Of a stretch of DNA of 64,000 nucleotides, positions 49,605 through 64,000 are shown piece after piece. Numbering within the stretch: position 1 is the stretch's first letter; each line of letters starts with the position of its first letter. The stretch lies in the NCBI GenBank assembly GCA_017644185.1, contig JAEPMA010000007.1, forward strand, positions 186,001 through 250,000, given 5' to 3'. The position numbers and the translations under genes were made by a program. The stretch comes from Rhodospirillales bacterium (GTDB lineage Bacteria > Pseudomonadota > Alphaproteobacteria > Rhodospirillales > Casp-alpha2). A model generated the notes under the pieces. That model worked only from the letters and a program-made list of their open reading frames with translations. It was not told the DNA's origin and did no database searches.

Positions 49605-49634
49605 CTCGAGTTCCTCCCCATAGAGCCCGGTTTA

Positions 49635-49700
49635 TGTCTGTTCATGACGTCAACAGACACCAGACCCGAACTTGTCCGTTTGTTTGAGAGACAAAACAAA
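49635..49700. promoter_or_regulatory. Two inverted repeats upstream of the dehydratase gene
   Basis: TGTCTGTT (49635-49642) and AACAGACA (49652-49659) form an 8-bp inverted repeat with a 9-base spacer. TTTGTTT (49679-49685) and AAACAAA (49694-49700) form a second repeat of 7 bp. Both lie within 100 bp of the dehydratase start (49604). They may be binding sites for a regulator of the dehydratase/ALDH pair. The rest of 49605-49958 has no gene; its other signal is the repeat at 49879. Confidence 0.45.
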
Positions 49701-49878
49701 TAGGGAGGGGGAAATTAGTCAACAAAATAACGGAATCCATTACTTCTTCACCGCCGGGGATAAGGGTGTGCGGCGCGCGTTATGAAGCGATCCATGTGCG
49801 TTCTGAGGTGCAGTGGTGCGAGGCGCACCAACGTTTCGCGTAGCTATGAAGGTTATATGTAAGTTATATTGTAGGAAT

Positions 49879-49890
49879 ATTGTTGACAAT
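49879..49890. promoter_or_regulatory. GntR/FCD-type operator overlapping a -35-like element
   Basis: ATTGT-TG-ACAAT (49879-49890) is a 12-bp dyad of the type bound by FCD-class GntR regulators. It overlaps TTGACA (49883-49888), a possible -35 element for the gntR gene starting at 49959. No convincing -10 box at 17-bp spacing was found. Autorepression is inferred. Confidence 0.45.
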
Positions 49891-49958
49891 TTTACGGACG
49901 ATTTTAAAGTGCCCATCGCACATTCGGTGAAAAGTCGAAGTGCGTATGGGAGCGTTCG

Positions 49959-50669
49959 ATGTCCAAGAGGCCTAAAACGGCGGCGGCTTCGTCGTCGGCA
50001 AAATCAGCGACAAGAAAAAAGGCCGATGACAATCCGCCTGAATTTCTGATCAACGTGCTGCGGGATCGCATCGCGAACCATGATCTGCCGCCCGGCAGCA
50101 AGCTCCGCGAAAACAGCATTTCCGAAGAGTTCGGTGTCTCCCGGGCGCGCGTCCGCGAAGCCTTCGGCGGTTTGGAGGAGCGCGGCCTGATCGAGCGTAT
50201 TCCGAACAGAGGGGCCGTCGTTACGCGGCTGGAAGCGCCTCAAGTGTTCGAATTGTTCGCCGTGCGTGAAGTTCTGGAAGGGCTCGCCGTTCGCCTTGCG
50301 ACCGAAAATCAGCCGCCCGAGAGCTGGCAGGATTTGGTCGATCTGTTCGATAAGCCGCTGGAGCAAGCCGTCAACGAGAACGATCTTGAATTTTATATCG
50401 AGGCACTCGCGACTCTTCGCACGCGAATGGTGATCGGGGCGGAATCGCAAACCCTCGAAAGTCTGCTCGACAGTATTTACGACCGCACGCGGGTGCTCAT
50501 TCGCCGCCTGGTCATTCTGCCAGGCCGCGCGCGCCAGGGCCTAAAAGAGCACCGCGCCATGCTTGCAGCGATGCGCGCCGGCGACGCCGAAAAAGCGGAG
50601 CAATTGAAACGCGCAAATATCCGCGGCTCCCGCGCGACCTTCGACAAGTTTCAGAAATTCATCCTTTAG
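49959..50669 (+). CDS. GntR-family regulator, FadR/FCD subfamily
   Basis: This 236-aa protein has a Lys/Ala-rich N-terminal tail (1-28), a winged HTH (about 30-95; LPPGSKLRENSISEEFGVSRARVREAF) and an all-helical FCD-like effector domain (about 105-225) with a weak metal-ligand pattern. It is the first gene before the biotin-dependent carboxylase operon, 21 bp upstream, and is probably its ligand-responsive repressor. It diverges from the dehydratase gene, so it might also control that. Confidence 0.88.
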   Translation: MSKRPKTAAASSSAKSATRKKADDNPPEFLINVLRDRIANHDLPPGSKLRENSISEEFGVSRARVREAFGGLEERGLIERIPNRGAVVTRLEAPQVFELFAVREVLEGLAVRLATENQPPESWQDLVDLFDKPLEQAVNENDLEFYIEALATLRTRMVIGAESQTLESLLDSIYDRTRVLIRRLVILPGRARQGLKEHRAMLAAMRAGDAEKAEQLKRANIRGSRATFDKFQKFIL

Positions 50670-50690
50670 TACGACCCAGCAGGAAAAAGC

Positions 50691-52040
50691 ATGTTCAAGA
50701 AAGTTCTCATCGCAAACAGGGGGGTGGTAGCGGTCCGCCTCAGCCGGACATTCCGAAAACTGGGTATCCCTTATGTCGTCGTGTATTCGGAAGCCGACGC
50801 CGACCACCCGTACGTGAAGGAAGCCGACGAAGCGCGTCCCGTCGGTCCCGCGCCGGCGAGGGAGAGTTATCTCAATCGCGCGTTGATGGTCGAGATCGCA
50901 AAGGAAACCGGCTGCGATGGGGTGCATCCCGGCTACGGCTTCATGGCGGAAGATCCGATCTTCGCGCAGATGGTCGAGGATGCGGGCATCCGTTTTATCG
51001 GGCCGAGCGCATCGCACATCGAAGCCATGGGCAATAAGGTCAAGGCACGGGAATTGATGGCGGGTGCCGATGTGCCGGTCCTCCCCGCAAGTGGTCCCGT
51101 TGGCGAGGAGGTCAGCGACTTCTCGGCGTATATCGACAAAATCGGCCTGCCGATGTTGATCAAGGCGGCCGCGGGTGGTGGCGGGATCGGCATGCAGCGA
51201 ATATTCGAAGCAGACAAGCTGGCCGGCACCATCGACAAGACCCGTCAGCTTGCGGCACGCGCCTTTGGGGATGGGACGGTTTATCTCGAGCGTTATCTGC
51301 AGGAACCCCGCCACATCGAGTTCCAGATGATCGGCGATGGGAAGGGGAACGTTCGCAACATCTTCGAACGCGACTGTTCGATTCAGCGCCGCCATCAAAA
51401 AGTGATAGAGGAATCGCCGGCCCCGTCCATCGATGCCGAAGTGGTTGGGAAGATGTCGGATATTCTCGTCAACGCGCTCGCGGGATGGAACTACGACAGC
51501 CTCGGTACCGTCGAGATGTTGTTGGATCATGACAGCAACCTCTACTTCCTGGAGACCAACACGCGACTGCAGGTCGAGCATGGTGTGACGGAAGCGGTGA
51601 CCGGTCTCGACCTGGTCGAAGCGCAACTCGGTATTGCGGCCGGAAAGACATTGGACCAGGTGCTACCCACAGATATCTCGACCAGCGGCCACGCCATCGA
51701 GCTTCGGATTTACGCCGAAGACCCGGTGAAGTTCTTCCCGTCGACGGGCACGCTGAACACGTTCAGTGTTCCGGATGTATCGGGCGTGATGACCGAAACC
51801 CACCTGGCCGAGGGCGGCGTGGTGACGCCGCACTACGATCCGATGTTGGCGCTGGTGATCGCCAAGGGTGAAACCCGCGACGACGCGATCGCGCGTTCGA
51901 TTGCGGCGCTCGAAGATTTCGCCGTCGAGGGAGTCAAAACCAACATTCCGTTCCTTCTGAATATGCTGCGTGCCGACGTGTTCCGTGATGTGCGCCATCA
52001 CACGACGTTGGCCGAACAGTTCAGCAAGACGGCCGCATAA
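50691..52040 (+). CDS. Biotin carboxylase subunit
   Basis: A 449-aa ATP-grasp biotin carboxylase without BCCP domain. Motifs: IANRGVVAVRL start, HPGYGFMAE, the glycine-rich ATP loop AAAGGGGIGM, ERDCSIQRRHQK, and LETNTRLQVEHGVTE, where G replaces the usual P. It carboxylates the biotin of a separate carrier, most likely the 73-aa protein at 54892. The gene is followed by a CoA-transferase and two carboxyltransferases, so it serves an acyl-CoA carboxylase. Essential AccC of fatty-acid synthesis is normally next to accB, so this is a separate catabolic copy. Confidence 0.92.
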   Translation: MFKKVLIANRGVVAVRLSRTFRKLGIPYVVVYSEADADHPYVKEADEARPVGPAPARESYLNRALMVEIAKETGCDGVHPGYGFMAEDPIFAQMVEDAGIRFIGPSASHIEAMGNKVKARELMAGADVPVLPASGPVGEEVSDFSAYIDKIGLPMLIKAAAGGGGIGMQRIFEADKLAGTIDKTRQLAARAFGDGTVYLERYLQEPRHIEFQMIGDGKGNVRNIFERDCSIQRRHQKVIEESPAPSIDAEVVGKMSDILVNALAGWNYDSLGTVEMLLDHDSNLYFLETNTRLQVEHGVTEAVTGLDLVEAQLGIAAGKTLDQVLPTDISTSGHAIELRIYAEDPVKFFPSTGTLNTFSVPDVSGVMTETHLAEGGVVTPHYDPMLALVIAKGETRDDAIARSIAALEDFAVEGVKTNIPFLLNMLRADVFRDVRHHTTLAEQFSKTAA

Positions 52041-52093
52041 TAAAAAAGAAGGTTTGGGACGAGGGGGAACAACAAGATGAAAAGGCAAATCAG

Positions 52094-53335
52094 GTGAGCG
52101 ACGCCGAAAATAAACGTAGCGGGCCGCTCAGCGGCTACACGGTCCTCGAGATGGGATCGACCGTCGCCGGGCCGTTCTGTGGGCGTCTGCTTGCGGATTT
52201 CGGTGCCGAGGTCATCAAGGTAGAGCCGGAAACCGGCGATGCCGTCCGGGCGATGGGGATGCGCGACGAAGAGACGTCGCTCTACGCGTCCAGCATTTTC
52301 CGGAATAAGAAGCTTATCTCCGTCGATCTCAGGACCGAAGAGGGGCGCGCGGTCGTGCGCCGGATCGCGACGCGTGTCGACATCATCGTTGAGAACTTCC
52401 GCCCCGGTACGCTCGAGAAGTGGGGCCTCGGATACGACGATCTGAAAGAAGAGAATCCCGGCCTCGTCATGGTGCGGATCAGTGGATACGGCCAGGATGG
52501 TCCTTACAGTGATCGCGCCGGGTACGGGATTGTTTGCGAGTCTGTTAGTGGGTTGCGTGAACTCAACGGTGATCCGGACCGGCCCCCGCCGCGCATCGCG
52601 ATATCGTTGACCGACTACATCACCGGCCTTTACGCCGCGTTCGGTGCGGTGATGGCGATCAACGAGCGAAACTTCACGAAAAAAGGCCAGGTCGTCGACG
52701 CAGCGCTATATGAATCCGCATTCAGCTTCAACGAGCCTCACGTGCCCGCCTTCTCGCGTCTGGGGTTTGTCGCGACCAGAACGGGTTCGCGGCTCGCCAA
52801 CAACACGCCCAACAATCTCTATTGCGCCAAGGACGGCCGCTATATCCACATCGCAGCGGGTGCTCAGTCCGTGTTCACGCGTCTCGTCAACATCATGGGT
52901 CAGCCTGAACTGCTCGACGATCCCCGGTTCTCGACGGCGCTGGCACGCAATGAAAACCACGAAGCCATCGACGAGATCGTCGGGGCCTGGACGGCGACGT
53001 TGCCGCTCGAGGAATGCGAACAACTGCTGATCGACAACAAAGTGCCGGGTGCGCGCATCTACAACATGCGCGACATCTTCAGCGATCCCCAATACATCGC
53101 CCGCGACATGCTGGTGGAGACAGACGGCGAGGACGGCAAACCGGTCACTCTCGCCGGGATTGTCCCACGTATGTCCGTCAATCCGGGGCGTATCCGCTGG
53201 GGCGGGCGCAAGGTCGGTGCGGATACGAACGATGTCTTGCGTGATGTCGCAGGCCTCGAAGACAGCGAAATCGAAGAATTGAAGGGCAAGGGCGTGGTCT
53301 ACGCGGCCATGCCGAAAGACGGAGCGGCCGAATGA
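52094..53335 (+). CDS. Class III CoA-transferase (CaiB/BaiF family)
   Basis: A 413-aa protein starting at a GTG at 52094. Family marks are GSTVAGPFCGRLLADFGAEVIKVEP (shortened to its opening here), NFRPGTLEKWGLGY and the catalytic aspartate D174 in ISLTDYITGLYAAF. It moves CoA between carboxylic acids in the cytoplasm. Its stop overlaps the start of the first carboxyltransferase gene (ATGA at 53332-53335), so the CoA-activated acid is very likely the substrate of the carboxylase. Confidence 0.9.
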   Translation: MSDAENKRSGPLSGYTVLEMGSTVAGPFCGRLLADFGAEVIKVEPETGDAVRAMGMRDEETSLYASSIFRNKKLISVDLRTEEGRAVVRRIATRVDIIVENFRPGTLEKWGLGYDDLKEENPGLVMVRISGYGQDGPYSDRAGYGIVCESVSGLRELNGDPDRPPPRIAISLTDYITGLYAAFGAVMAINERNFTKKGQVVDAALYESAFSFNEPHVPAFSRLGFVATRTGSRLANNTPNNLYCAKDGRYIHIAAGAQSVFTRLVNIMGQPELLDDPRFSTALARNENHEAIDEIVGAWTATLPLEECEQLLIDNKVPGARIYNMRDIFSDPQYIARDMLVETDGEDGKPVTLAGIVPRMSVNPGRIRWGGRKVGADTNDVLRDVAGLEDSEIEELKGKGVVYAAMPKDGAAE

Positions 53336-54867
53336 ACGACGACGACACGAAGGATGAACTCCAGCGCCGCGAAGAGCATGCCCTCGGCATGGGTGGCCCC
53401 GAAAAGCTGGCGCGCCGTCGCGAGCAGGGGCTTTTGAATGCCCGCGAACGTGTCGACTACATCCTGGATAAAGACAGTTTCCTTGAAGTCGGGTTGCTCG
53501 GGACGTCATCCGTCGTTCCAGAAGACCGTGACAAGACGCCCGCCGACGGCAAGGTCTCGGGGTACGGGAACCTGGACGGCCGACCGGTCGGTATCGTCTC
53601 CAATGATTTCACGGTCAAGGGGGCGTCCAGCAGCCTCACCAATATGAAGAAGATCGGCCATGTGAAGCGGGTCGCGACCGAGCGGGGCATGCCGCTGATC
53701 TTTTTAGGGGAATCGTCCGGCGCCCGCATGCCCGACAATATGGGTTCCAAGGGGATGGGCGCGATGCTCGGCAATGACCCCAGTCAGTATGTGCGGTTCC
53801 GCGAAACGCCCTGGGCATCGGCCGTGCTCGGCCCGTGTTACGGGTCATCGGCCTGGTACACGTGTCTGGCCGATTTCACCGTCATGCGCCGCGGCGCCGT
53901 CCTTGCAGTCGCTAGTCCGCAACTGGCCTCCATGGCAATCGGTGAAACGGTGGACCCGCAGGAGCTGGGCGGTTGGGAACTGCATGCCGAAACCACCGGT
54001 CTGATCGATACCTTCGCCGATACCGACGAAGAAGCTTTGGACCTGATCAAGCGCTTCATGAGCTATATGCCGTCTCACCACAACGAAGCCCCGCCGATGG
54101 GACCTGCCGTCGAGAAATCCTGCGATGCGTTGACCAAGATCGTGCCCGAGAGCCGCAAGCGCGTTTATGACGTGCACCGGGTTCTGCAGCAGGTTCTGGA
54201 CGACGACAGCATTTTCGAGCTGAAAGCGAAGTTCGGGCGGGTCGCCGTGACCGCGCTGGCGCGTCTTAACGGGCGTGTTGTCGGGGTGGTCGCGAATAAT
54301 CCCATGATCAAGGGCGGTGCGTTGGATGCGCACGCCTGCGAAAAGATCACGCGGTTTCTGGTAATGTGCGACTCGTTCAACATTCCGCTTCTGATGTTCG
54401 TCGACACGCCGGGGTTCATTATCGGCAAGGAAGGTGAGCGTCAGCGCGCCGCTTCCAAGATCATGAACTTCATGACGGCGCTACAGATGTTCTCGATGCC
54501 GAAGCTGTCGGTGATCATGCGCAAGAGCTACGGCCAAGCGTATCTGAACATGGGCGGCGGACGGAATTCGGACGAAGTGCTGGCGTGGCCGTCGGCGGAA
54601 GTCAGCTTCATGGACCCGGCATACGCGACAAAGGTCGTTATGTGGGGGCGGTCCGAAGAAGAACACCCGGAAGAATATGAGAAAGTCCGCGAGCAGATGT
54701 CGAAGGACAATGCGGTCTGGGACATGGCGTCAAGCTTTGCCGTTCAGCATGTTATCCGCCCGCAGGACACCCGCCAGCAGCTAATCCGGCTGATGGAATT
54801 TCACGAAGACCGGCGCCACGGCGGCATCGGCAAACACACGCTATCCAACTGGCCTACGGGCTACTGA
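53332..54867 (+). CDS. Acyl-CoA carboxylase carboxyltransferase subunit (first of two)
   Basis: This 511-aa protein has both crotonase-like halves of an AccD/PccB-type subunit. The N-half has LGESSGARMPDNMGSKGMG and GPCYGSSAWYTCLADFTVM; the C-half has FGRVAVTALARLNGRVVGVVANNP, FVDTPGFIIGKEGER and MRKSYGQAYLNMGGG. It transfers the carboxyl group between carboxybiotin and an acyl-CoA. A second, clearly different carboxyltransferase follows the biotin carrier gene. The start is fixed by the ATGA overlap with the CoA-transferase. Confidence 0.9.
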   Translation: MNDDDTKDELQRREEHALGMGGPEKLARRREQGLLNARERVDYILDKDSFLEVGLLGTSSVVPEDRDKTPADGKVSGYGNLDGRPVGIVSNDFTVKGASSSLTNMKKIGHVKRVATERGMPLIFLGESSGARMPDNMGSKGMGAMLGNDPSQYVRFRETPWASAVLGPCYGSSAWYTCLADFTVMRRGAVLAVASPQLASMAIGETVDPQELGGWELHAETTGLIDTFADTDEEALDLIKRFMSYMPSHHNEAPPMGPAVEKSCDALTKIVPESRKRVYDVHRVLQQVLDDDSIFELKAKFGRVAVTALARLNGRVVGVVANNPMIKGGALDAHACEKITRFLVMCDSFNIPLLMFVDTPGFIIGKEGERQRAASKIMNFMTALQMFSMPKLSVIMRKSYGQAYLNMGGGRNSDEVLAWPSAEVSFMDPAYATKVVMWGRSEEEHPEEYEKVREQMSKDNAVWDMASSFAVQHVIRPQDTRQQLIRLMEFHEDRRHGGIGKHTLSNWPTGY

Positions 54868-54891
54868 TCAATCTGAAGAGGGGGAGTTCCC

Positions 54892-55113
54892 ATGGCACGC
54901 CTAGAGGTTAAATCCGAAGTTACCGGTACTGTTTGGAAGATCGAGAAGTCGGTCGGCGACAGTGTCGCGGAATTTGACGACATCATGATCCTGGAATCCA
55001 TGAAGATGGAAATTCCGGCGCCGTCTCCCGCCGACGGCAAGGTCGTCGAGATCCTGGTCGAAGAAGGTGTCGCGGTCGAAGAAGGCCAGGTCCTGGCGAT
55101 CGTGGAATCCTGA
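54892..55113 (+). CDS. Biotin carrier protein (biotinyl domain only)
   Basis: At 73 aa this is a minimal biotinyl domain: beta hammerhead with the biotinylation motif ESMKME, modified lysine K38, and the mirrored second half ending GQVLAIVES. There is no Ala/Pro-rich N-terminal arm as in AccB. GGGGG precedes the ATG. It links biotin carboxylase (50691) with the flanking carboxyltransferases. The next gene starts 1 bp after its stop. Confidence 0.93.
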   Translation: MARLEVKSEVTGTVWKIEKSVGDSVAEFDDIMILESMKMEIPAPSPADGKVVEILVEEGVAVEEGQVLAIVES

Positions 55114-55114
55114 T

Positions 55115-56704
55115 ATGTCGGACGCCCCGGAAACAAAATCGGCAGCTGAAGAGCGCCTCGAAGAACTTAAAAACCGCCGCGCCTGGGCGGAAGAGCTGGG
55201 TGGTGCGGACGCGGTCGAGCGGCATCATGCACGCGGGCGGCTGACGATCCGCGAGCGGATCGGCCATTTGATCGACAAGGGCTCGTTTCACGAAGTCGGC
55301 AAGCTGACCGGCAACGGGAAATACGACGAAAACAACGAAGTCACAGGTGTCACGCCGGCCCCTTACGTCATGGGCCTGGCCGAAATCGACGGCCGCCCAA
55401 TCGCCGTCGGTGGTGAGGATTTCACCGTGCGCGGCGGCACCAGTTGGGGCGCACGCCGCCGCAAAGGTGGGCAGGGCGGCTTCGTCGAGGACTTGGCCCA
55501 TGAATACAGAATTCCGCTGGTCAACCTGATCGATGGTGCGGGCGGCACGGTCACCTCGCTGAAAAGCCGGGGCCATTCGGTTTTCCCGGGTATCTTTGGG
55601 TTCGAACGCTCTGTCGAACTGCTGGGTGAAGTCCCCGTTGTCGCCGCCGTGATGGGCACCGCCGCCGGCGGCCCTGCCGGGCGCGCGATCCTGTCGCATT
55701 TCTCGATCATGGTCGAAGGGACCAGTCAGGTGTTCGCCGCCGGTCCGCCGGTGGTCAAGCGGTCGCTTGGTCAAGAGATCGACAAGGACGACCTGGGCGG
55801 TGTTCAGGTCGCTGTCGAGACATCGGGTACGATCCACAATGCCGCCAAGGACGAGGACGACGCATTTCGGCAGATCAGACAATTTCTGAGCTATATGCCG
55901 CAGAACGTTTGGGAACTGCCGCCACGCGGCGCTACCGACGATCCTGTCGACCGTTGCGAGGAAGGGCTACGCAAGATCATCCCCGAAAAACGTACTCGCG
56001 CCTACGACATGCGCAAGTTGATCGAGATGGTGGTCGACCGCGACAGCATGTTCGAAATCCAGCCGGGTTATGGGAAGGCGGTGATCGTCACCATGGCGCG
56101 GTTGAACGGCTATCCGGTCGGGGTCATCGCCAACAATCCGATGATCTACGGCGGCGCAATGGACGCCAAAGCGGCGCGCAAACAGATCCACTTCATGGAG
56201 CTTTGCGACAACTTCCACATTCCGGTGATCTTCCTGGTCGACGTGCCCGGTTTCATGGTCGGACTCGCGGCGGAGAAGGAGGGCGCGCTGCGCGAAGGTA
56301 TGCGTGCGGTTTATACGGCCGGCAAGATGCGTGTCCCAACGTTCACGTTGGTCATTCGCAAATGTTACGGCATGGCCGGAATGGCGACCTGTAACAAGAA
56401 CGGCGTCGACATGAAGGTCGCGTGGCCGAGCGCGGAGTGGGGTTCGTTGCCCATCGAGGGTGGCGTTGCTGCTGCGTTCCGCCGCGAGATCGAAGCCGCC
56501 GAAGATCCGGCCGCGAAGGAAAAAGAGATCGAAGCCGAGCTTCGGCCTTTCGCTTCGCCTTTCCGGACCGCCGAGGCGTTCGAGGTCGAGGACATCATCG
56601 ACCCGATCGAGACCCGGCCGTTTTTCTGCAAATTCGTCGAGCTCGCTTACGCGCGCTTGAAACACTCCCTCGGGCCGCAATCGCGGGCCGGGGTTCAACC
56701 CTGA
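55115..56704 (+). CDS. Acyl-CoA carboxylase carboxyltransferase subunit (second of two)
   Basis: A 529-aa PccB/MccB-type protein starting at the ATG at 55115, immediately after the biotin carrier stop. Marks: the N-half has RGGTSWGARRRKG, NLIDGAGGTVTS and GTAAGGPAGRAILSHF; the C-half has YGKAVIVTMARLNGYPVGVIANNP, FLVDVPGFMVGLAAEKEG and VIRKCYGMAGMA. The N-terminal AEERLEELKNRRAWAEELGGADAVERHHARGRLTIRERI opening (only its style is cited) is typical of MccB-like subunits. Both subunits look intact, so a mixed complex or two substrates are possible. Confidence 0.9.
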   Translation: MSDAPETKSAAEERLEELKNRRAWAEELGGADAVERHHARGRLTIRERIGHLIDKGSFHEVGKLTGNGKYDENNEVTGVTPAPYVMGLAEIDGRPIAVGGEDFTVRGGTSWGARRRKGGQGGFVEDLAHEYRIPLVNLIDGAGGTVTSLKSRGHSVFPGIFGFERSVELLGEVPVVAAVMGTAAGGPAGRAILSHFSIMVEGTSQVFAAGPPVVKRSLGQEIDKDDLGGVQVAVETSGTIHNAAKDEDDAFRQIRQFLSYMPQNVWELPPRGATDDPVDRCEEGLRKIIPEKRTRAYDMRKLIEMVVDRDSMFEIQPGYGKAVIVTMARLNGYPVGVIANNPMIYGGAMDAKAARKQIHFMELCDNFHIPVIFLVDVPGFMVGLAAEKEGALREGMRAVYTAGKMRVPTFTLVIRKCYGMAGMATCNKNGVDMKVAWPSAEWGSLPIEGGVAAAFRREIEAAEDPAAKEKEIEAELRPFASPFRTAEAFEVEDIIDPIETRPFFCKFVELAYARLKHSLGPQSRAGVQP

Positions 56705-56777
56705 ATGAGCTGATCTTATCGATCCAAGAGCAAAAGCCGGATAACGGCAGGACCCACATCAAGGAGGATGAAACAAG

Positions 56778-57758
56778 ATGAAGACCCTTAAAGTTGCGGC
56801 CGTCGGCCTTGTGCTGGCTGCTAGCACGTTCAGCGCCAATGCGGCAGACAGGTTGTCCTTCGGAACGACCGCGCTCAAGTCCGTCCACTACACCTATGCG
56901 GTCTCGGCCGCCAAGGCGATCAACCAGGTTTCCGGTGACAAGGTCGACGTGACCGTGATTTCGACGGGCGGTGCGGTCGACAACCTGTCGCGTATCGATC
57001 GTGGTCAAATTCACATGGGCCTCGGCACCTACGCCACCATCTATCAGGCCTATACCGGTATCGGGAAATTCGACGGCAAGCCGCAGAAAAAACTGCGCGG
57101 TCTTTGGGTGCATGCCCCGGCCATTCAGGCATGGGTCGTCCGTGCCGATTCCGGTGTCGAGAAACTGAGCGACCTTGTCGGCAAGAAGTTCACGCCGGGC
57201 CAGCGCGGTTCGGCCACCGAACAGCTGGCGATTCAGATGCTCGAAGCAATCGACATCAAGCCTGATCTTTACCGTGCAAGCCTCTCCGACGCCGTTGCCG
57301 CGGTGAAGGACAATCGCGCCGTCGGTTACGTGAAGGCGGGTGGCGTCAAATCGTTGGACGGCACGACCCTCGAACTTCGGGCGTTCACCCCGATCCGCCT
57401 GCTGGGTTTCAGCCAGGATCAGGTTAAGTCGGTGAAGGCTAAGTTCCCGTTCATCAACTTCATGGACATCAAGGACGGCGAGATCGAAGGCGTCGGCGCG
57501 ATGACCACGCCGGTACAGGTGATCGGTCAATTCGCTTACACCGACAGCCTGAGCGACGATCAGGTGCATGCTATCCTGACCGGTATCGTCGACGGCAAGA
57601 AAACCCAGGAAGCGGCTTTCCCGGGCATCAAGAGCCTCGACATCATCAACGACTCGCTGGCGTTGATCACCATTCCGCTGCACAGCGGTGCGGTGAAGTT
57701 CTATCGTGAACGCGGCGCCACCGTGCCGGATCGTCTGATCCCGCCGGAAATGAAATAA
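56778..57758 (+). CDS. TAXI-family TRAP transporter solute-binding protein
   Basis: A 326-aa protein with a signal peptide (1-22, cleavage after ANA) and the TAXI-family fold: LSFGTTALKSVHYTYAVSAAKAIN, VISTGGAVDNLSRIDRGQIHMGL, VRADSGVEKLSDLVGKKFTPGQRGSATE. AAGGAGGA precedes the ATG. It delivers an organic acid to the fused permease at 57836. It directly follows the carboxylase genes and so probably supplies their substrate. Confidence 0.9.
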   Translation: MKTLKVAAVGLVLAASTFSANAADRLSFGTTALKSVHYTYAVSAAKAINQVSGDKVDVTVISTGGAVDNLSRIDRGQIHMGLGTYATIYQAYTGIGKFDGKPQKKLRGLWVHAPAIQAWVVRADSGVEKLSDLVGKKFTPGQRGSATEQLAIQMLEAIDIKPDLYRASLSDAVAAVKDNRAVGYVKAGGVKSLDGTTLELRAFTPIRLLGFSQDQVKSVKAKFPFINFMDIKDGEIEGVGAMTTPVQVIGQFAYTDSLSDDQVHAILTGIVDGKKTQEAAFPGIKSLDIINDSLALITIPLHSGAVKFYRERGATVPDRLIPPEMK

Positions 57759-57770
57759 CGAACCCGACCG

Positions 57771-57798
57771 CCGGGCGGGGCCGTTGTGCTCCGCCCGG
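57771..57798 (+). terminator. Hairpin after the TAXI binding-protein gene
   Basis: CCGGGCGG (57771-57778) pairs with CCGCCCGG (57791-57798) with a 12-base loop. Only a weak T stretch follows (tcaatcgtttt), so termination would be partial. It lies between binding-protein and permease genes, like the hairpins at 1906 and 40850. Confidence 0.55.
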
Positions 57799-57835
57799 TC
57801 AATCGTTTTGAACATGATGATGTAAGAGGTTTGTT

Positions 57836-59767
57836 ATGGCAGGTCAGGCGGCAGCGGCCGGGAATAAAAGTTCGTTCCAAAAGTTTTTGGACGGGCTTGT
57901 TCTGGTCATGGGGTTCTGTCTCGTCGGCTATCATTTATGGACGGCCGGGTTCGGTCAGTTCCAGCCGCTGATCCAGCGTTCCGCGCATCTCGCGCTCGGG
58001 CTTGGGATCGCTTATCTGCAGTTCTGCCGCTTCGACAGCGAAGAAACCCTTCTCACAAAACTCGCTCGACTACTTAATATCGCGATCGCGCTGATCGCCG
58101 TCGCCGCATGCGTCTACATCATGTTTGTCGAAGAGCGGCTTTCGAACAGTTTCTCGATCATCGCAAAGCCGGAAGAAATCGTTCTTGGGGTTTTTCTCAG
58201 CTTCGCGATCCTCGAAGGCGCGCGGCGGACGACCGGACCGTTCCTGCCGATCCTCGCCATCACGTTGATCGCATACACGCTCTTCGGCCAGCTTATTCCG
58301 GGCCGTTGGGGGCATCCGGGTTTCGGCGGCTCGTACGTTCTTGAATATCTCTATCTCGGGACCGAGGGAATCTGGGGCACCGTCACCGGGCTTTCGGCCA
58401 ACCTTGTCTCGATCTTCATTATCTTCGGGGCATTCCTTTTGGCGACCGGTGCGGGTGAGAGCTTCATGAGCATCGCCATGGTTGCCGCCGGACGGTTCCC
58501 GGGCGGCGCGGCCAAGGTCGCGACCGTCGCCAGTGCTCTTTTCGGGATGTTGAACGGCGCCGCCGTCGCCAACGTGGCAACAACCGGTAACTTTACGATC
58601 CCGGCGATGAAACGCCTCGGCTACCGTCCGGCGTTCGCCGGCGCGGTCGAGGCGACGGCTTCCTCGGGCGGGCAGATCACGCCGCCGATCATGGGCGCGG
58701 GTGCGTTCGTGATGGCGGAACTGCTCAGCACGTCATATCTGAATGTTGTTCAGGCGGCGATCATTCCGGCATTCCTGTTCTTCGCGTGCATCTGGATGAG
58801 CATTGGCGTTGAAGCGCGCCGCGAAGACATGCGGACCTTCGCGAAAGAAGATATACCGCCGCTGCGCGACGTCTTGAAATGGCGCAAGATCGGGCCGCTG
58901 GTGCTCACCATCGCGGTGATGATGATCAGTATGTTTGCGGGCAACACGCCTGCGCTGGCGGCGTTCTATGGGATATGCACCAACATCGTGCTGTTCATGA
59001 TTTCGGGCGCTTTCACGTGGGAAGCGATCCGCGCGCGCCTCGGCAAACTCGCCGAAGGTGTCAAGCTGGCTTCGACCGGGATCGTGACGATCATCGCGCT
59101 TCTGGTCAGTGCGCAGATCGCGCTCTCGTTAATTGGACTGAGCGGCGTCGGGATTAAGCTGAGCGAGCAGATCATTACCGTTGGGGCCGGTGGCGGGATG
59201 CTGTTGAGCCTTATCCTCGCGCTTGTCGTTGCCCTTGTCCTCGGTATGGGGATGCCGACCACGGCGGCGTACTTGTTGGCGGCTGCCGTCACCGTGCCGG
59301 CGTTGATCGAACTCGATATCTTGCCGATGGCGGCACATTTCTTCGTCTTTTACGGTGCACTTCTTTCGGCGCTGACCCCGCCGGTGTGTACTGCCGTCTT
59401 CACGGCCGCCGTGATTGCCAACACGCACTGGTGGCCGATCGCACTCACCAGCATGCGTCTGGCGGTGATGAAATACGTGCTGCCGTTCTTCTTTATCTAT
59501 CGTCCGGAAGTGCTGATGAAGGGAACGGTAGAAGATATCCTCTGGGTCGTCGTCGCGGGATTGTTCTCGTCTTGGCTGTTTGCCGTGTCGATCGGTGGGT
59601 ACTACGTTAACCGCTTGCCGGGGGTGGTGCGCATCGTGGCACTCGCCGTCGGTGTGGGGATGATTTCCGGTGAGTTTACGCTCGATATTCTTGGCGTCGC
59701 CGTCGCATTGGCGCTCGCGGTCTGGGACCGCCGGAGAAGCACGCCGGAACCGGCTATGTCTGCATGA
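57836..59767 (+). CDS. TAXI-TRAP fused permease (4TM/12TM)
   Basis: A 643-aa membrane protein of the TRAP 4TM/12TM fusion family. About five helices come first (20-150), then the DctM-like part with GTVTGLSANLVSIFIIFGAFLLATGAGE, NGAAVANVATTGNFTIPAMKRLGY, ASSGGQITPPIMGAGAF, GMGMPTTAAYLLAAA and SALTPPVCTAVFTAA. It imports the ligand of the TAXI protein. The bioY gene starts 46 bp later in the same direction. Confidence 0.92.
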   Translation: MAGQAAAAGNKSSFQKFLDGLVLVMGFCLVGYHLWTAGFGQFQPLIQRSAHLALGLGIAYLQFCRFDSEETLLTKLARLLNIAIALIAVAACVYIMFVEERLSNSFSIIAKPEEIVLGVFLSFAILEGARRTTGPFLPILAITLIAYTLFGQLIPGRWGHPGFGGSYVLEYLYLGTEGIWGTVTGLSANLVSIFIIFGAFLLATGAGESFMSIAMVAAGRFPGGAAKVATVASALFGMLNGAAVANVATTGNFTIPAMKRLGYRPAFAGAVEATASSGGQITPPIMGAGAFVMAELLSTSYLNVVQAAIIPAFLFFACIWMSIGVEARREDMRTFAKEDIPPLRDVLKWRKIGPLVLTIAVMMISMFAGNTPALAAFYGICTNIVLFMISGAFTWEAIRARLGKLAEGVKLASTGIVTIIALLVSAQIALSLIGLSGVGIKLSEQIITVGAGGGMLLSLILALVVALVLGMGMPTTAAYLLAAAVTVPALIELDILPMAAHFFVFYGALLSALTPPVCTAVFTAAVIANTHWWPIALTSMRLAVMKYVLPFFFIYRPEVLMKGTVEDILWVVVAGLFSSWLFAVSIGGYYVNRLPGVVRIVALAVGVGMISGEFTLDILGVAVALALAVWDRRRSTPEPAMSA

Positions 59768-59813
59768 CGCATGAGTGAATACGAATAATCAATATCTTGA
59801 TAGGAAAGGATAT

Positions 59814-60401
59814 ATGAACATGAACAACACACTTGTCGCCGGCCTTTGGGCGGCTTCGACGGAGTCGAAGATGCGACAGATTGGATTGGCATTCGCCGGT
59901 TCGATGCTGATGGCGATTTCGTCGAAATTTCAGATTCCGTTTTATCCCGTTCCCCTGACCATGCAGACCTTCGTGGCCATCGCTCTCGGTATGACGTTGG
60001 GCTGGAAGCTTGGTATGGCGACGATCCTGCTGTATCTGGCCGAGGGCGCCGCCGGGCTGCCGGTATTCGCGGGGACGCCTGAAAAGGGCATCGGCATCAC
60101 GTACTTACTGGGCAGCACGGGCGGTTACCTGTTGGGTTATGCATTTGCTGCGGCGGCTGCCGGGTACCTGGCGGAAAAAGGCTGGACGCGGTCGCTCTTG
60201 AAAACGGCGGCGGCGGCATTCGTCGGGATGGTATTGATTTATGCGCCGGGTGTGCTCTGGCTCGGTAGCCTGTTCGGCTGGGATAAACCGATTCTCGAGT
60301 GGGGTCTGTATCCGTTCGTTTACGGCGACCTCCTGAAAATCGCCCTGCTTACGGCGACATTCCCGTTGATGTGGAAGTTCATGGACAGGAAACAGCGCTG
60401 A
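59814..60401 (+). CDS. bioY: BioY biotin transporter (ECF S-component)
   Basis: A 195-aa membrane protein with six helices and BioY signatures PFYPVPLTMQTFVAIALGMTLGWKLG (its key part VPLTMQT), LAEGAAGLPVF and GYLLGYAFAAAAAGYLAEKGW. AGGAAAGGA sits three bases before the ATG at 59814. BioY takes up biotin alone or with BioMN. No bioMN is seen here. Its place after the biotin-dependent carboxylase operon suggests co-regulation of cofactor uptake with demand. A terminator follows. Confidence 0.92.
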   Translation: MNMNNTLVAGLWAASTESKMRQIGLAFAGSMLMAISSKFQIPFYPVPLTMQTFVAIALGMTLGWKLGMATILLYLAEGAAGLPVFAGTPEKGIGITYLLGSTGGYLLGYAFAAAAAGYLAEKGWTRSLLKTAAAAFVGMVLIYAPGVLWLGSLFGWDKPILEWGLYPFVYGDLLKIALLTATFPLMWKFMDRKQR

Positions 60402-60424
60402 TCCGGAACTCGCTCCCCCTCACG

Positions 60425-60457
60425 AAAAGACCCGGTGGAATTGCCGCCGGGTCTTTT
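60425..60457 (+). terminator. Rho-independent terminator after bioY
   Basis: AAAAGACCCGG (60425-60435) pairs with CCGGGTCTTTT (60447-60457); three further inner pairs including one G-T extend the stem around a 5-base loop. The 3' arm ends in TTTT. This closes the transport/bioY transcription unit and separates it from the oxidoreductase genes at 60502. Confidence 0.8.
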
Positions 60458-60501
60458 CCGGGGGGCGAGATCGTGACGGAATGCCGACATCCAGCATGTA
60501 A

Positions 60502-61326
60502 ATGAATAAGCAGAGCCCCAGCGACACTGATGCTGCGTTTTCGTCCCGCGCGGTCCTCGGCAATGCCACGTTGAGATGGTTGGGCATCGGTACAGCCGCC
60601 TTTATCACCGCGTACTTTCTCCTCCTATTTCCTTTGTTGCCTGCGCCGTGGCGAACGGCGGGCAGTCCCGAACTGTACCTGACTGGTGTTGCGGGCGCTT
60701 GTTTGCTGTTGGTGGCGATGGTGTTTTCCGCGATTAAACGCGGTGGCGGCGGCGATCTGGCCCCTAAATTCTACGTCGCCCATGTCCTTTGCGCTTATGC
60801 GGGCACCATCCTGGTCGCGGTCCATGGGGCGGGGAACCTGGGCCGGCCACCGGCAATGATGTATCTCGCGATCCTCGGATTGGTGCTGCTGGGTATGTAT
60901 GCGCGGTTACACGTTTCGCGCCGCATGGAGCGGACATTCGCCGAAAAACACGCAAGTTACGCCGTGACGATGAGCGAACCGAAACGCGAACGGTTAAGGG
61001 AACTCATTCAGAAAAAGAAGACGCTTTTGGCCGAGCTCGACCCCAAAGCGAACGAGGGCACGTTCTCATTGCAACCCAAACATTGGCGCGCGTGTCCTCT
61101 GCGATCCTTGCGTTATGCCAAGCTGGTCCGTGAAGAGCAGGAGGTTATGGGCACGCGCCGAATGGTGCCCTTCGCGCAAGCCTATTGGTGGATGGCGCAC
61201 CGTGCGCTCGCTCACCTGTTCGTTCTTGGTATCGTGATCCACGTGATCACGGTGACGTTTTTTGCCGGTTACGTTGCCGATTACGATTTCTCCAAGATCA
61301 CCTGGTGGCATATCGCAAAGTGGTAA
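60502..61326 (+). CDS. Histidine-rich membrane protein, probable haem-binding anchor of the next enzyme
   Basis: This 274-aa protein has about five helices (25-47, 58-78, 88-110, 117-136, 230-256) and a soluble charged segment (140-225). Histidines lie in or next to helices at H94 and H108 (helix 3), H137, and H233, H238, H247 (last helix), a pattern suited to b-type haem. I do not recognise a named family; it is not NrfD- or DmsC-like. It lies 4 bp upstream of the Fe-S/molybdopterin fusion gene, so it is probably its quinone-linked membrane subunit. No strong ribosome binding site is seen at 60502, so the start is provisional. Confidence 0.7.
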   Translation: MNKQSPSDTDAAFSSRAVLGNATLRWLGIGTAAFITAYFLLLFPLLPAPWRTAGSPELYLTGVAGACLLLVAMVFSAIKRGGGGDLAPKFYVAHVLCAYAGTILVAVHGAGNLGRPPAMMYLAILGLVLLGMYARLHVSRRMERTFAEKHASYAVTMSEPKRERLRELIQKKKTLLAELDPKANEGTFSLQPKHWRACPLRSLRYAKLVREEQEVMGTRRMVPFAQAYWWMAHRALAHLFVLGIVIHVITVTFFAGYVADYDFSKITWWHIAKW

Positions 61327-61330
61327 TCCG

Positions 61331-64000
61331 ATGAACGAAACGTCTGATAAGCGCCTGGCGCTGATGATCGATCTTGAACGCTGCATCGGCTGTAAAAGCT
61401 GCGAGGCGGCGTGTAAGTCCGAACACGGCCTTGGGCCGGGCGAGTATCGCAACCGGGTGACATGGCTCGGCGATCCCGATGGGGGCGCTTTCGATTTCCT
61501 GACCGTGACCTGCCAGCACTGCGAACGGCCCGCATGCCTGCGGGCATGTCCGGTCAATCCCAAGGCGATCGAGAAAGATCCGGAAACCGGCGTCGTGCGG
61601 GTGATCGAGAGCCGATGTACCGGGTGCGGTGAGTGTGTCGTCGCATGCCCGTACGGTGCCATGGGGTTCGATGCCGTTGATCACCATTCGGTCAAATGCG
61701 ACCTCTGTCACGACCGCCGACAGAACGACCAGAAGCCGGCGTGCGCCACCGTCTGTCCGGGATCAGCGATTTCGTTCGGCGAAAGAACCGAGCATGTTGC
61801 TTATGCGGAACGTGAAAACCGAACGATACGCGACCACGATCACTTCTTGCTGGAGCCCGCGACCATTTATCTGGACGCGCTTCCCCGCGAGAATCGAATC
61901 AATGATTTGCGCCCCGTCGACAAGGCGAACGCACGCCGCCCGAAGTTTATGGACAATCCGGCGGCACAGGCGACGCTTAGGGAAAAGAAGGCGGAATATC
62001 CTTATCGTACGTCCCGCGCGGAACGCGAGGTAGACAGCGTTCGTCCCGGTGGGTGCAATATCTGCTTTAACTGCTGCAGCACGAACTTTCATTTCAAGGG
62101 CGACAAGCTTGTGCGCGTTACCGGCAACGAGGAAGACCCGCTTCTCAAGGGGAAGGTCTGTCCGAAGTCGCAGATGACCGTGCAGATGTACAACAACGAC
62201 GAACGGTTGATGCATCCGCTAAAACGTGTCGGCGCGCGCGGGGAAGGCAAGTTCGAGCGGATTTCCTGGGATCAGGCGCTGGACGAAATCGCCGAAAAAC
62301 TCAAATCCGTGCGCGACGAGGTGGGCAGCGAGGCGTTGGCCATGTTTATCGGGACGCGCACAGGCATCATCACGAAAAGCGGTTACGTCCGGATGTTCGC
62401 GCAGATGTACGGCACCCCGAACGTCGAAAGTACCGATGCGTTCTGCGCGACGAGCAAGGCCATCGCCTATCAATTGACCCACGGGACGATCGGCGCCGGC
62501 AACAGTTATACCGAAACCGACCTGGGTGCCGCTGAACTCTACGTTTATATCGGGGATAACCAGGCCGAAACCCGGCCGGTCTATTTTGGAATGATCAATG
62601 ATTGGCGTATCAAGAACGGCGCCAAGATGGTTGCGATCGACCCGCGCCTCACCCCCACCGCCTCGAAAGCGGACCGGTGGTTCGGTATTCGGCCGGGGAC
62701 CGACATGGCGCTGGCGCTGGCGCTCGCCTATTCCATCCTTGAGCGCAATCTTCACGACGAGGCGTTCTGTGAAGAGTGGATCGTCGGTTGGGAGATCTGG
62801 CGCGACTATATATTAGATAATGCTTATACGCCTGAGTGGGCGGCGCCCATAACCGATATTTCAGCTGAAGATATTCGTTGGCTGGCCGAACAGATCGCCA
62901 CCGCCGACGGTTGTGTGATGTTCGGCTCACGGGGGATTAACCAGCATACCAACTCCACCCAGACCAACCGTGTGTTGATGTACGTTTGCGCAATCACGGG
63001 GAACTGGGGCCGAAAGGGGGGCACGTATTTGAATATGTCGGCGGGCCCGCCGGTCGGACCGAACGTGCCGGAGTCACGAATGGCGCCGATCTCGCGCCCG
63101 AAAATCCGGAAAAGCCCATCCGGCTGGACGGAAGCGATGCGCAGCGGCAGCCCCTATCCGATCAAGGCGATGATCGCGTGCAACAACCCGTTCAGTCAGT
63201 GGCCGGACCAGAACGCCATTCGCGAAGCGTTCGAATCTTTGGAGCTTCTTGTACATATCGAACTCTTCGCCAATGCGACATCGGCGTTTGCGGACTATGT
63301 CCTGCCGGCCGCGGCGGGGATTGAGAAGGGCGAGATCGGACGAGCAAATGATGATCGGCGGATCGTTTGGATCGACCGCATGATCGACCCGCCGGGTGAT
63401 GCGAAGCCGGATGCCTGGATCTGGGTCGAACTGGGTAAGCGGCTTGGCTTCGACGACGTCCTTCAGGAGAAATACAAAGACACCGCACTTTTCTGGGATG
63501 AAGTCTGCATCAAGGGGAACCCGCACCTTCAAGGGATTACACAGAAACGCCTGCACAGCAGACCCTATCGCTGGGTCCGCTTCCCCGTTGCGTCGGAGGA
63601 TGCGCCGGAAATCGAAACGCTTTATCTAGAGGGGACGACCGCCGTCGGTCAGCCCGAGGGCAAACGCTTTGCGACCCCATCCGGGAAGCTGGAGTTTTAT
63701 ACCGAGGCGATCGAGACCAAGTTCAACGCGCTCGGAATGTCGTCGTTGCCGGAGTTCTATTCCGAACGCGAGCAACGGATCGATCTCCCCTATGTCGAAC
63801 TTCAGCACGACGACAGCGAAGCCGGCGTCCCCAATCCGTTCCATGGGAACAATACGTCAGGATCGATGGGGCGCCTGGTGCGCGCGGGCAACAATACGCC
63901 GGGGCAGCAGCTTCGCGCGAAAGGCTTCGAATTGGAACTCGTGACCGGCCGTGCATCGGCCGCGCACTTCCACAGTTGGACTCACTATTTCTGGCAGGCG
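61331..64000 (+). CDS. Fusion of four-cluster ferredoxin module and molybdopterin oxidoreductase (incomplete at the window end)
   Basis: One open frame of 890 codons runs from the ATG at 61331 to the window edge. Residues 10-150 form a DmsB/PsrB-like ferredoxin with 16 cysteines in four clusters: C18/21/24/28, C61/64/69/73, C96/99/102/106 and C123/126/138/142. After a linker (150-238) comes a DMSO-reductase-family catalytic domain with its own Fe-S site C242, C245, C248 or C249 and C277 (GGCNICFNC, KVCPKS), and typical segments ERISWDQALDEIA and MVAIDPRLTPTASKAD. C-terminal pterin-binding part begins near 860. There is no Tat signal, so it should be cytoplasmic. The substrate is unknown. Confidence 0.9.
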   Translation, partial: MNETSDKRLALMIDLERCIGCKSCEAACKSEHGLGPGEYRNRVTWLGDPDGGAFDFLTVTCQHCERPACLRACPVNPKAIEKDPETGVVRVIESRCTGCGECVVACPYGAMGFDAVDHHSVKCDLCHDRRQNDQKPACATVCPGSAISFGERTEHVAYAERENRTIRDHDHFLLEPATIYLDALPRENRINDLRPVDKANARRPKFMDNPAAQATLREKKAEYPYRTSRAEREVDSVRPGGCNICFNCCSTNFHFKGDKLVRVTGNEEDPLLKGKVCPKSQMTVQMYNNDERLMHPLKRVGARGEGKFERISWDQALDEIAEKLKSVRDEVGSEALAMFIGTRTGIITKSGYVRMFAQMYGTPNVESTDAFCATSKAIAYQLTHGTIGAGNSYTETDLGAAELYVYIGDNQAETRPVYFGMINDWRIKNGAKMVAIDPRLTPTASKADRWFGIRPGTDMALALALAYSILERNLHDEAFCEEWIVGWEIWRDYILDNAYTPEWAAPITDISAEDIRWLAEQIATADGCVMFGSRGINQHTNSTQTNRVLMYVCAITGNWGRKGGTYLNMSAGPPVGPNVPESRMAPISRPKIRKSPSGWTEAMRSGSPYPIKAMIACNNPFSQWPDQNAIREAFESLELLVHIELFANATSAFADYVLPAAAGIEKGEIGRANDDRRIVWIDRMIDPPGDAKPDAWIWVELGKRLGFDDVLQEKYKDTALFWDEVCIKGNPHLQGITQKRLHSRPYRWVRFPVASEDAPEIETLYLEGTTAVGQPEGKRFATPSGKLEFYTEAIETKFNALGMSSLPEFYSEREQRIDLPYVELQHDDSEAGVPNPFHGNNTSGSMGRLVRAGNNTPGQQLRAKGFELELVTGRASAAHFHSWTHYFWQA

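Follow-up and report, generated by a model that had tools for sequence, protein, structure and literature searches.

The 64,000-nucleotide stretch of a Rhodospirillales bacterium genome considered here (GCA_017644185.1, contig JAEPMA010000007.1, positions 186,001 to 250,000; hereafter the window) contains at 49959-60401 an operon, all on the + strand, which encodes in order a GntR/FCD regulator, a biotin carboxylase (BC), a CoA-transferase (CoAT), a carboxyltransferase (CT1), a biotin carboxyl carrier protein (BCCP), a second carboxyltransferase (CT2), a TAXI-family solute-binding protein, a fused TRAP permease and the biotin importer subunit BioY. The transcriptional regulator gene (49959..50669, 236 aa; Pfam FCD, 1.2e-19, and GntR, 5e-15) heads the set. 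It is followed by a free BC of 449 aa (50691..52040), in which the Pfam domains Biotin_carb_N, CPSase_L_D2 and Biotin_carb_C cover residues 1-441 and which is without a BT or BCCP domain, and by a class III (CaiB/BaiF) CoAT of 413 aa with a GTG start (52094..53335; CoA_transf_3, 3.6e-112). Next come CT1, a full-length carboxyltransferase of the propionyl-CoA carboxylase (PCC) type with 511 aa (53332..54867; Carboxyl_trans, 1.6e-96), a mini BCCP of 73 aa, here a separate protein, with the biotinylation motif ESMKME (54892..55113; Biotin_lipoyl, 8.5e-17), and CT2, which is also full-length, with 529 aa, and of the PCC/acetyl-CoA carboxylase (ACC) type (55115..56704; Carboxyl_trans, 1.2e-103). 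The TAXI protein (56778..57758, 326 aa; TIGR02122, 155.4 bits, cut-off 84.35) and the fused permease (57836..59767, 643 aa; TIGR02123, 529.3 bits, cut-off 320.65) both exceed their curated cut-offs as a TAXI-type TRAP importer, and BioY (59814..60401; Pfam BioY, 1.5e-35) ends the gene set. The BioY frame is open from 59775, and the ATG at 59814, preceded by GGAAAGG, is the more likely start than the GTG at 59775. CoAT and CT1 overlap by 4 bp, 1 bp separates BCCP from CT2, and the remaining gaps are 7-77 bp. An intercistronic hairpin with a 12-bp stem lies between the TAXI and permease genes (57770..57799, +; -26.4 kcal/mol, z -3.98), and a terminator-like hairpin stands at the operon end (60424..60458, +; -28 kcal/mol, z -4.26; equalled by 0 of 200 shuffles). 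The open reading frames and Pfam E-values confirmed the identities, positions, strand and 4-bp overlap of the genes named in the first-pass annotation, which had missed the regulator gene and the hairpins. The operon apparently represents a conserved and not previously described variant of biotin-dependent acyl-CoA carboxylase, with two distinct full-length carboxyltransferases that are inherited together, as in the mycobacterial long-chain acyl-CoA carboxylase (LCC) type.

A scan of GTDB species genomes seeded by exact CT1 peptide patterns, which favours close relatives, gave 69 loci, 45 of them with a CT1 of at least 57% identity. Counted within the fetched stretches, several of which are short contigs, CT2 (at least 60%) is present in 43 of these 45 loci, being absent from L046 (6.5-kb contig) and L049 (18.4 kb), and CoAT (at least 50%) in 41; thus the search for the same gene order, which the first-pass annotation had suggested, recovered a recurring CT1-CT2-CoAT core. 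BCCP is found in 39 of the 45, BC in 32, a GntR homologue (at least 45%) in 31, and orthologous TAXI and TRAP genes in 15 each. Judged by length, two pairs of loci are duplicate contigs (L022/L115 and L040/L116). The labels of most neighbour genes come from BLAST against a small number of Pfam- or record-annotated genes. The carriers are alpha-, beta- and gammaproteobacteria, with genera including Halomonas, Billgrantia, Azoarcus, Sneathiella, Ferrovibrio, Roseovarius, Parapusillimonas and Ottowia. A search of 100 genomes with CT1 gave matches at E 1e-100 or below in 10 (the host and nine relatives) and none at this threshold in seven congeners; among 385 genomes of the class, with up to three candidates scored per genome, 15, host included, had a match at 1e-140. 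On plasmids, identity to CT1 steps from 52% to ~35% among the best 40 of 326 matches, and identity to CT2 from 67% to 50% among the best 40 of 227. Chromosomal CT1 relatives fill the range of 45-57% identity and thus blur the boundary of the family. The BC gene lies at the operon front in the window and at the end in many relatives, and the window BC is 59% identical to the BC of L022 and 41-51% to the other BCs among the matches listed. Five of the loci (L060, L069, L070, L071 and L077) come from metagenome-assembled genome records labelled Bordetella parapertussis, a species label which looks doubtful.

The association of the two carboxyltransferases is seen both in gene position and in their trees. 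Among 101 loci examined, 51 have exactly one CT1 and one CT2 (L067, L068 and L093 hold more), and in these one-to-one pairs 47 are on the same strand and 41 have starts within 2.4 kb. Distant types pair too, a CT2 of 44-45% identity standing beside a CT1 of 53-55% in L061, L063, L065 and L118. Across the 31 loci with all five genes, CT1 and CT2 tree distances correlate with r 0.95, and with a partial correlation of 0.76 given BC, CoAT and BCCP; the values on 24 deduplicated loci, from which near-identical CT1s had been dropped, are 0.94 and 0.74. The other partial correlations over the 31 loci are 0.49 for BC-BCCP, 0.44 for CT1-CoAT, 0.15 for CT2-BC, 0.13 for CT1-BC and 0.06 for CT2-CoAT, and in 500 bootstraps CT1-CT2 was above CT1-BC in 99.8% and above CT1-CoAT in 98%. 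For TAXI and TRAP permease, which are known partners, r is 0.93 (22 loci). By this pattern, CT1-CT2(-CoAT) forms the core of the operon, and BC-BCCP a pair that is exchanged more readily. Our reading, which we hold tentatively and at slightly less than even confidence, is that the operon encodes a catabolic acyl-CoA carboxylase in which the two carboxyltransferases act as one unit, perhaps as a mixed ring like that of mycobacterial LCC; that CT1 and CT2 share one physical complex seems possible, if a little more doubtful.

Several observations weigh against this reading. When all 54 pairs are taken, the CT1-CT2 correlation (r 0.82) is not above that of CT1-CoAT (0.85, 45 loci). Likewise, in the domain-split tree test on 54 loci, the N-to-C' pairs that a mixed dimer should bring together did not stand out (partial correlations N1-C2 0.11, C1-N2 -0.17, N1-N2 0.28, C1-C2 0.10), and the trees of neighbouring genes can match simply through moving together. 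CT2 is absent from the fetched stretch in 15 of 66 loci with a CT1 of at least 50% identity, 13 of these being below 57%, and CT1 types without CT2 occur, for example, in L072-L074, L094, L129, L132 and L138. Conversely, genomes G023 and G034 have a CT2 (67%) beside CoAT with no CT1 at E 1e-100 and no close BCCP relative, in drafts that are 93% and 75% complete. Since each carboxyltransferase is found without the other, neither requires the other in all genomes. BC is absent from 13 of the 45 fetched stretches. Thus, the mixed ring put forward in the first-pass annotation fits the co-inheritance of the two proteins, but the domain-level test is unfavourable to it and each protein can occur alone.

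The same observations bear on another arrangement, less probable in our view but to be taken seriously, in which CT1 and CT2 are separate homohexamers that draw on a common BC and BCCP and work on two different acyl-CoAs, sequentially or in parallel. CT1 and CT2 form distinct clades and each is found without the other; in Cupriavidus, CoAT groups with CT2 and not with CT1 (CoAT-BCCP-CT2, then CT1-BC), and in G023, G034 and G037 it has CT2 alone beside it; and at some loci the two carboxyltransferase genes are separated by an enzyme gene (MaoC in Cupriavidus, aconitase in L057). However, nearly all loci with close CT1 relatives (43/45) hold both proteins, mostly close together (41 of 51 pairs within 2.4 kb) and with no recurring linking enzyme, and in the 31-locus test the CT1-CT2 tree match exceeds that of all other pairs, with CoAT tracking CT1 (0.44) and not CT2 (0.06).

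Some loci with only one of the two proteins, or with an altered gene order, have neighbourhoods of their own. In L141, L142 and L143 (from G023, G034 and G037), a CoAT-CT2 pair with no CT1 beside it is followed, in the same gene order in all three genomes, by genes for a TauD/TfdA-type dioxygenase (Pfam on L141) and alcohol dehydrogenase-, short-chain dehydrogenase/reductase- and aldo-keto reductase-like proteins. The betaproteobacterial loci L062, L071, L075, L076 and L079 have CT1 beside BC, electron-transfer flavoprotein genes, a FadB-like gene and a sulfite-dehydrogenase-like molybdenum enzyme, and seemingly represent a different pathway using CT1 relatives; CT2 is present in two of these five, L062 and L071. 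The CT1 relatives of L094, L129, L132 and L138, which have no CT2 in the fetched stretch, adjoin a gene similar to ADP-forming acyl-CoA ligases, not a CoA-transferase, and some have CitE, MaoC, enolase-superfamily or Tct genes. Plasmid pMTS3 of Cupriavidus sp. P-10 (L099) carries CoAT, BCCP, CT2 and BC together with no CT1 between CT2 and BC; that place is taken by an annotated hypothetical gene of 67 aa, and the only match to CT1 on the plasmid is the CT2 gene.

CT1 and CT2 are 32% identical, and in a tree built from 95 CT1 and 64 CT2 sequences with a small number of further carboxyltransferases they fall into two clades, with support of 0.63 for CT1 and 1.0 for CT2. Together with the retained main catalytic loops and the matching trees, this bears out the first-pass description of two diverged full-length carboxyltransferases. 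Compared with solved structures, both stand closer to PCC/ACC-type enzymes: the E-value of CT1 is 1.2e-83 to 1vrg versus 1.5e-48 to methylcrotonyl-CoA carboxylase (MCC; 3u9r), and that of CT2 is 5.8e-91 to 7w5u versus 8.1e-57 to 3u9r. In the sequence comparison, both lack the segment RQDEVFPD, given as an MCC motif in PMC4347857. Judged by these comparisons, both CT1 and CT2 are assigned to the PCC/ACC (alpha-carbon) lineage and not to the MCC (gamma-carbon) lineage. AlphaFold2 monomer models have a complete two-domain fold for both CT1 (predicted local distance difference test score 83.2, predicted template modelling score 0.86) and CT2 (82.3 and 0.85), and the best Foldseek matches are again 1vrg for CT1 (1.1e-48) and 7w5u for CT2 (3.9e-49); the structures nearest to the models include Thermotoga PCC beta, the 12S transcarboxylase subunit and AccB.

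This assignment speaks against gamma-carboxylation of an unsaturated C5 dicarboxyl-CoA, in which mesaconyl- or citraconyl-CoA would give aconityl-CoA to feed aconitase. A few loci do have suitable partner genes (aconitase in L046 and L057, aconitase X in L044 and L045, MaoC, CitE). However, these are few, none is found among the scanned operon-side proteins of the window, and both carboxyltransferases are of the alpha-carbon lineage without RQDEVFPD; we consider this route very improbable. The term aconityl-CoA was not found in the open-licence papers searched.

Both carboxyltransferases retain their catalytic loops, namely R397-K398-x-Y-G and D-x-P-G-F in CT1 and R415-K416-x-Y-G and D-x-P-G-F in CT2. 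Conservation across 59 paired CT1 sequences is 100% at D358, P360, G361, F362, R397, K398, Y400 and G401, and in 59 CT2 sequences D376, P378, G379, R415 and G419 are at 100%, with K416 at 89%, Y418 at 91% and F380 at 88%; these sets count some genomes twice, and L088-L090 (31-34% identity to CT1) are excluded from the CT1 alignment and conservation sets. Thus, no loss of catalytic loops is seen in either protein. Relative to the PCC-like carboxyltransferase of the host (L001), CT1 departs at Ser129, Ser172, Ser173 and Gln402 and CT2 at Met420. One could therefore suppose that one carboxyltransferase is catalytic and the other structural or regulatory, because Ser172-Ser173 replace Gly-Ala of the N-domain loop and Ser129 a Gly in CT1, and a C-domain loop Gly is replaced in both (Gln402 and Met420). 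However, both proteins retain RK-x-Y-G, D-x-P-G-F and the remaining loop glycines at high conservation, and the same CT1 loop occurs in CT1 proteins standing without CT2, so that such a division of labour has very little likelihood. Each family also has its own signature in the acyl-pocket segment, with R132, P134, M137, R155 and R157 at 100% in CT1 and V146, P158 and G159 at 100% and R190 at 94% in CT2. The family-specific charged residues suggest that the two proteins may accept polar and differing acyl groups. According to PMC4673880, on geranyl-CoA carboxylase, the acyl pocket is made mainly of N-domain helices, and alpha-carbon and gamma-carbon enzymes are set apart. Since AlphaFold2 confidence is low in the acyl-pocket loops (CT1 133-142; CT2 145-150 and 157-160), the shape of the pocket was not used here.

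Among the other subunits, BC matches 2vpq at 2.9e-118, and CoAT has 4ed9 as the closest solved relative (3e-63). All checked active-site positions of BC are kept in 42 of 42 BC homologues; these positions, a subset of the catalytic residues, were chosen from the active-site residues of E. coli BC. Separately, the window BC has NRGVV, where the first V position is Glu in 27, Ala in 12 and Val in 3 of the 42 homologues, and Ile166 in its glycine loop is common to 40 of the 42. Thus, the hallmarks of biotin-dependent acyl-CoA carboxylases are present: an ATP-grasp BC (with the checked positions), a carrier with MKM, and carboxyltransferases with a two-domain crotonase fold.

In the mechanism we propose, the TAXI-type TRAP importer would take up one organic acid, and the class III CoAT, as its family predicts, would move CoA onto this acid from another CoA ester. 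BC, in which the residues are observed, would carboxylate the biotin of BCCP with ATP and bicarbonate, and the carboxyl group would be transferred to the alpha carbon of the acyl-CoA. CT1 and CT2 would work together as a single unit, most likely through a mixed core that offers two types of acyl pocket, as AccD4 and AccD5 do, and the product would enter central metabolism; the cofactor would be supplied by BioY or, at other loci, by biotin-synthesis genes. That the operon combines import, CoA activation and biotin-dependent carboxyl transfer we regard as highly probable, in line with the first-pass annotation, which had read the genes as one module; the carboxyltransferase pair in 43 of 45 loci and the families of the proteins agree with this. 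Carboxylation is the probable net direction, and the conservation of the checked BC positions favours ATP-driven carboxylation over a pure transcarboxylase.

The first-pass annotation had also raised a biotin-coupled transcarboxylase. As such an enzyme, or as a decarboxylase, the system would strip CO2 off a malonate-type acyl-CoA with one carboxyltransferase and pass it with the other to a second acyl-CoA, or would run BC in reverse to make ATP. Such a scheme would account for two carboxyltransferases flanking one small carrier and for CoAT activation of an imported malonate-type acid, and PrpD in L043, a PrpB-like gene in L093 and citrate synthase in L134 and L137 hint at propionyl-CoA. But the operon includes BC with its checked active-site positions kept, which speaks for an ATP-linked carboxylase; the transcarboxylase of Propionibacterium has a 5S partner and is not known to have a BC; a membrane decarboxylase was not found in the operon or the genome; and four of the six loci with methylcitrate-type genes have CT1 without CT2. 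We therefore regard this scheme as unlikely. About equally unlikely, and if anything slightly more so, is a bolder version of the mixed ring, in which two different acyl pockets would surround the single 73-aa carrier and carboxybiotin would pass between two acyl-CoAs in an ATP-primed transcarboxylation; this would be at the core of an undescribed pathway with which many Proteobacteria feed on one class of organic acids, possibly sulfonated or otherwise unusual.

Mycobacterial LCC (AccA3-AccD4-AccD5-AccE) is among the known systems closest to the operon and likewise has two different full-length PCC-type carboxyltransferases with one biotin carboxylase. This corrects the premise of the first-pass annotation that acyl-CoA carboxylases usually have one carboxyltransferase subunit or an A/D pair. 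In LCC, AccA3 fuses BC and BCCP, and the complex has an epsilon subunit, AccE, and no CoA-transferase or importer; in the operon, no gap exceeds 77 bp, which is too short for an epsilon-subunit gene. CT1 is ~30% identical to the carboxyltransferase chains of LCC, and six solved LCC entries (9t97, 9yx1 and others) contain 12 chains labelled D4 and 24 labelled D5. The AccD4-AccD5 interaction was observed by pull-down, as stated in PMC4347857, and LCC, unlike the catabolic role we propose here, is biosynthetic and serves mycolic acids according to PMC5311964. With PCC/ACC (PccB and AccB type; 1vrg and 7w5u), the operon shares the carboxyltransferase fold, loops and alpha-carbon lineage, but those enzymes have one carboxyltransferase gene, and the PCC alpha subunit fuses BC, BT and BCCP, whereas the operon has free BC and BCCP and two carboxyltransferases. 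In the Propionibacterium methylmalonyl-CoA:pyruvate transcarboxylase, whose 12S subunit (1on3) is among the structures closest to both models, 12S has a 5S keto-acid subunit as its partner and is not known to use a BC; the operon, in contrast, has BC and no 5S-like gene among its proteins.

In malonate decarboxylases, as proposed for the operon, an imported acid is activated as a thioester, and two carboxyltransferase-type proteins (MdcD-MdcE) are likewise present. The Mad enzyme is biotin-dependent. MdcD, however, has 287 aa (5vip), about half a carboxyltransferase, whereas both proteins of the operon are full length, and the operon is without an acyl carrier protein or membrane subunit gene and has BC. 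The Mdc enzyme is biotin-independent, as described in PMC5534430. The sodium-pumping decarboxylases (methylmalonyl-CoA, glutaconyl-CoA) provide the best model of both carboxyltransferases, TIGR01117, but the scores of 330.5 and 358.5 bits are far below the cut-off of 998.8. These decarboxylases have an OAD_beta membrane subunit, and neither the operon proteins nor the 99.87%-complete host genome has one (PF03977, E 0.001), in agreement with the earlier remark that no membrane decarboxylase is seen; a sodium-pump decarboxylase was thus ruled out.

Few clues to the substrate come from neighbouring genes. Transporters are exchanged among loci (the same TAXI-TRAP, distant TAXI-TRAP, NMT1-type ATP-binding cassette, TctC, DctM/DctQ and major facilitator superfamily types), as would be expected of an uptake step, and one TAXI protein specific for glutamate is reported in PMC11574862. 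A hydrophobic protein of ~450 aa, apparently with many helices (L023:16486-17883), adjoins CT2, a transporter or BC in eight loci (L023, L025, L026, L028, L029, L034, L035 and L083), has no Pfam match in L023, where it was scanned, and is perhaps an alternative importer or exporter. Partner enzymes are few and inconsistent, with MaoC-type genes in Cupriavidus, Sulfitobacter, L048 and L049, aconitase in L046 and between the carboxyltransferase genes in L057, aconitase X in L044 and L045, and MmgE/PrpD in L043. Because no other recurring neighbour was found across the CT1-CT2 loci, it seems that the core needs no further enzyme to reach central metabolism. A TauE-type gene lies directly 3' of CT1 in L049, L055 and L056 (cluster c23, also in L038; Pfam on L049), a SoxC/SorA-like enzyme occurs in five loci of our group B (scanned in L062, below curated cut-offs), and a gene annotated as a putative sulfate exporter lies ~6 kb from CT1 in Sulfitobacter (L094). 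These neighbours hint at a sulfur substrate and, being present in a minority of loci, are kept as a lead. Methylcitrate-type genes in six loci (L043, L093, L133, L134, L136 and L137) hint at propionyl-CoA there, and four of these six have CT1 without CT2. A sulfolactate gene set, considered for the UxaA, Ldh and hydroxyacid dehydrogenase genes beside CT2 in Variovorax (L098), was rejected because the scores were far below curated cut-offs.

Of the four full-length carboxyltransferase matches in the host genome (4.16 Mb, 99.87% complete), two are CT1 and CT2 and the other two lie on contig C3; two partial matches are presumably AccA and AccD. The two C3 proteins score 674 and 527 bits in Pfam, against 324 and 348 for CT1 and CT2, and the host thus has CT1 and CT2 in addition to better-scoring carboxyltransferases. 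The best BioB match in the host genome, at 33.8 bits, is below the curated cut-off of 225, which makes biotin auxotrophy of the host probable. The genome carries two BioY genes, one of them in this operon. Elsewhere, BioY is present in 5 of the 45 loci with CT1 of at least 57%, BioB adjoins CT2 in L052 (Pfam) and L081 (71% to the L052 BioB), and the Cupriavidus P-10 and EM10 loci have bioAFDB and bioF, respectively. Biotin supply, to which the first-pass annotation had drawn attention, is therefore a theme of these loci. PMC9804861 reports a gene cluster that is induced by isoprene and includes carboxylase and biotin-synthesis genes, and calls the enzyme a propionyl-CoA carboxylase.

Around the operon, a weak sigma-70-like promoter match (TTGACA-16-TAAAGT, 49883..49910, +) lies 5' of the regulator gene, and three such sites were found versus 3.1 expected from shuffles, that is, no excess. 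No Rfam family reached its gathering threshold in 49000-61500. GC content stays even over 44-64 kb, at 0.57-0.63. Genes for an aldehyde dehydrogenase and an IlvD/Edd-type dehydratase lie upstream on the opposite strand and do not look like part of the operon, and 3' of it, at 60502-64000, four scanned open frames have no Pfam match. In an empty-site test, this right flank of the operon was not found in seven congeners, so no insertion boundary could be placed.

In summary, the operon belongs to a conserved proteobacterial module in which an importer, a CoA-transferase and a biotin enzyme with two carboxyltransferases travel together. No description of this gene set, and no known enzyme having it, was found among the titles and abstract openings that our searches of open-licence literature covered, subscription papers lying outside this scope. 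The four-subunit carboxylase is small enough to be rebuilt in E. coli. The substrate, once identified, would name the ligand of this branch of TAXI transporters. If the mixed ring is true, carboxylases with two carboxyltransferases would be a wider design and not a mycobacterial speciality, used here in catabolism.

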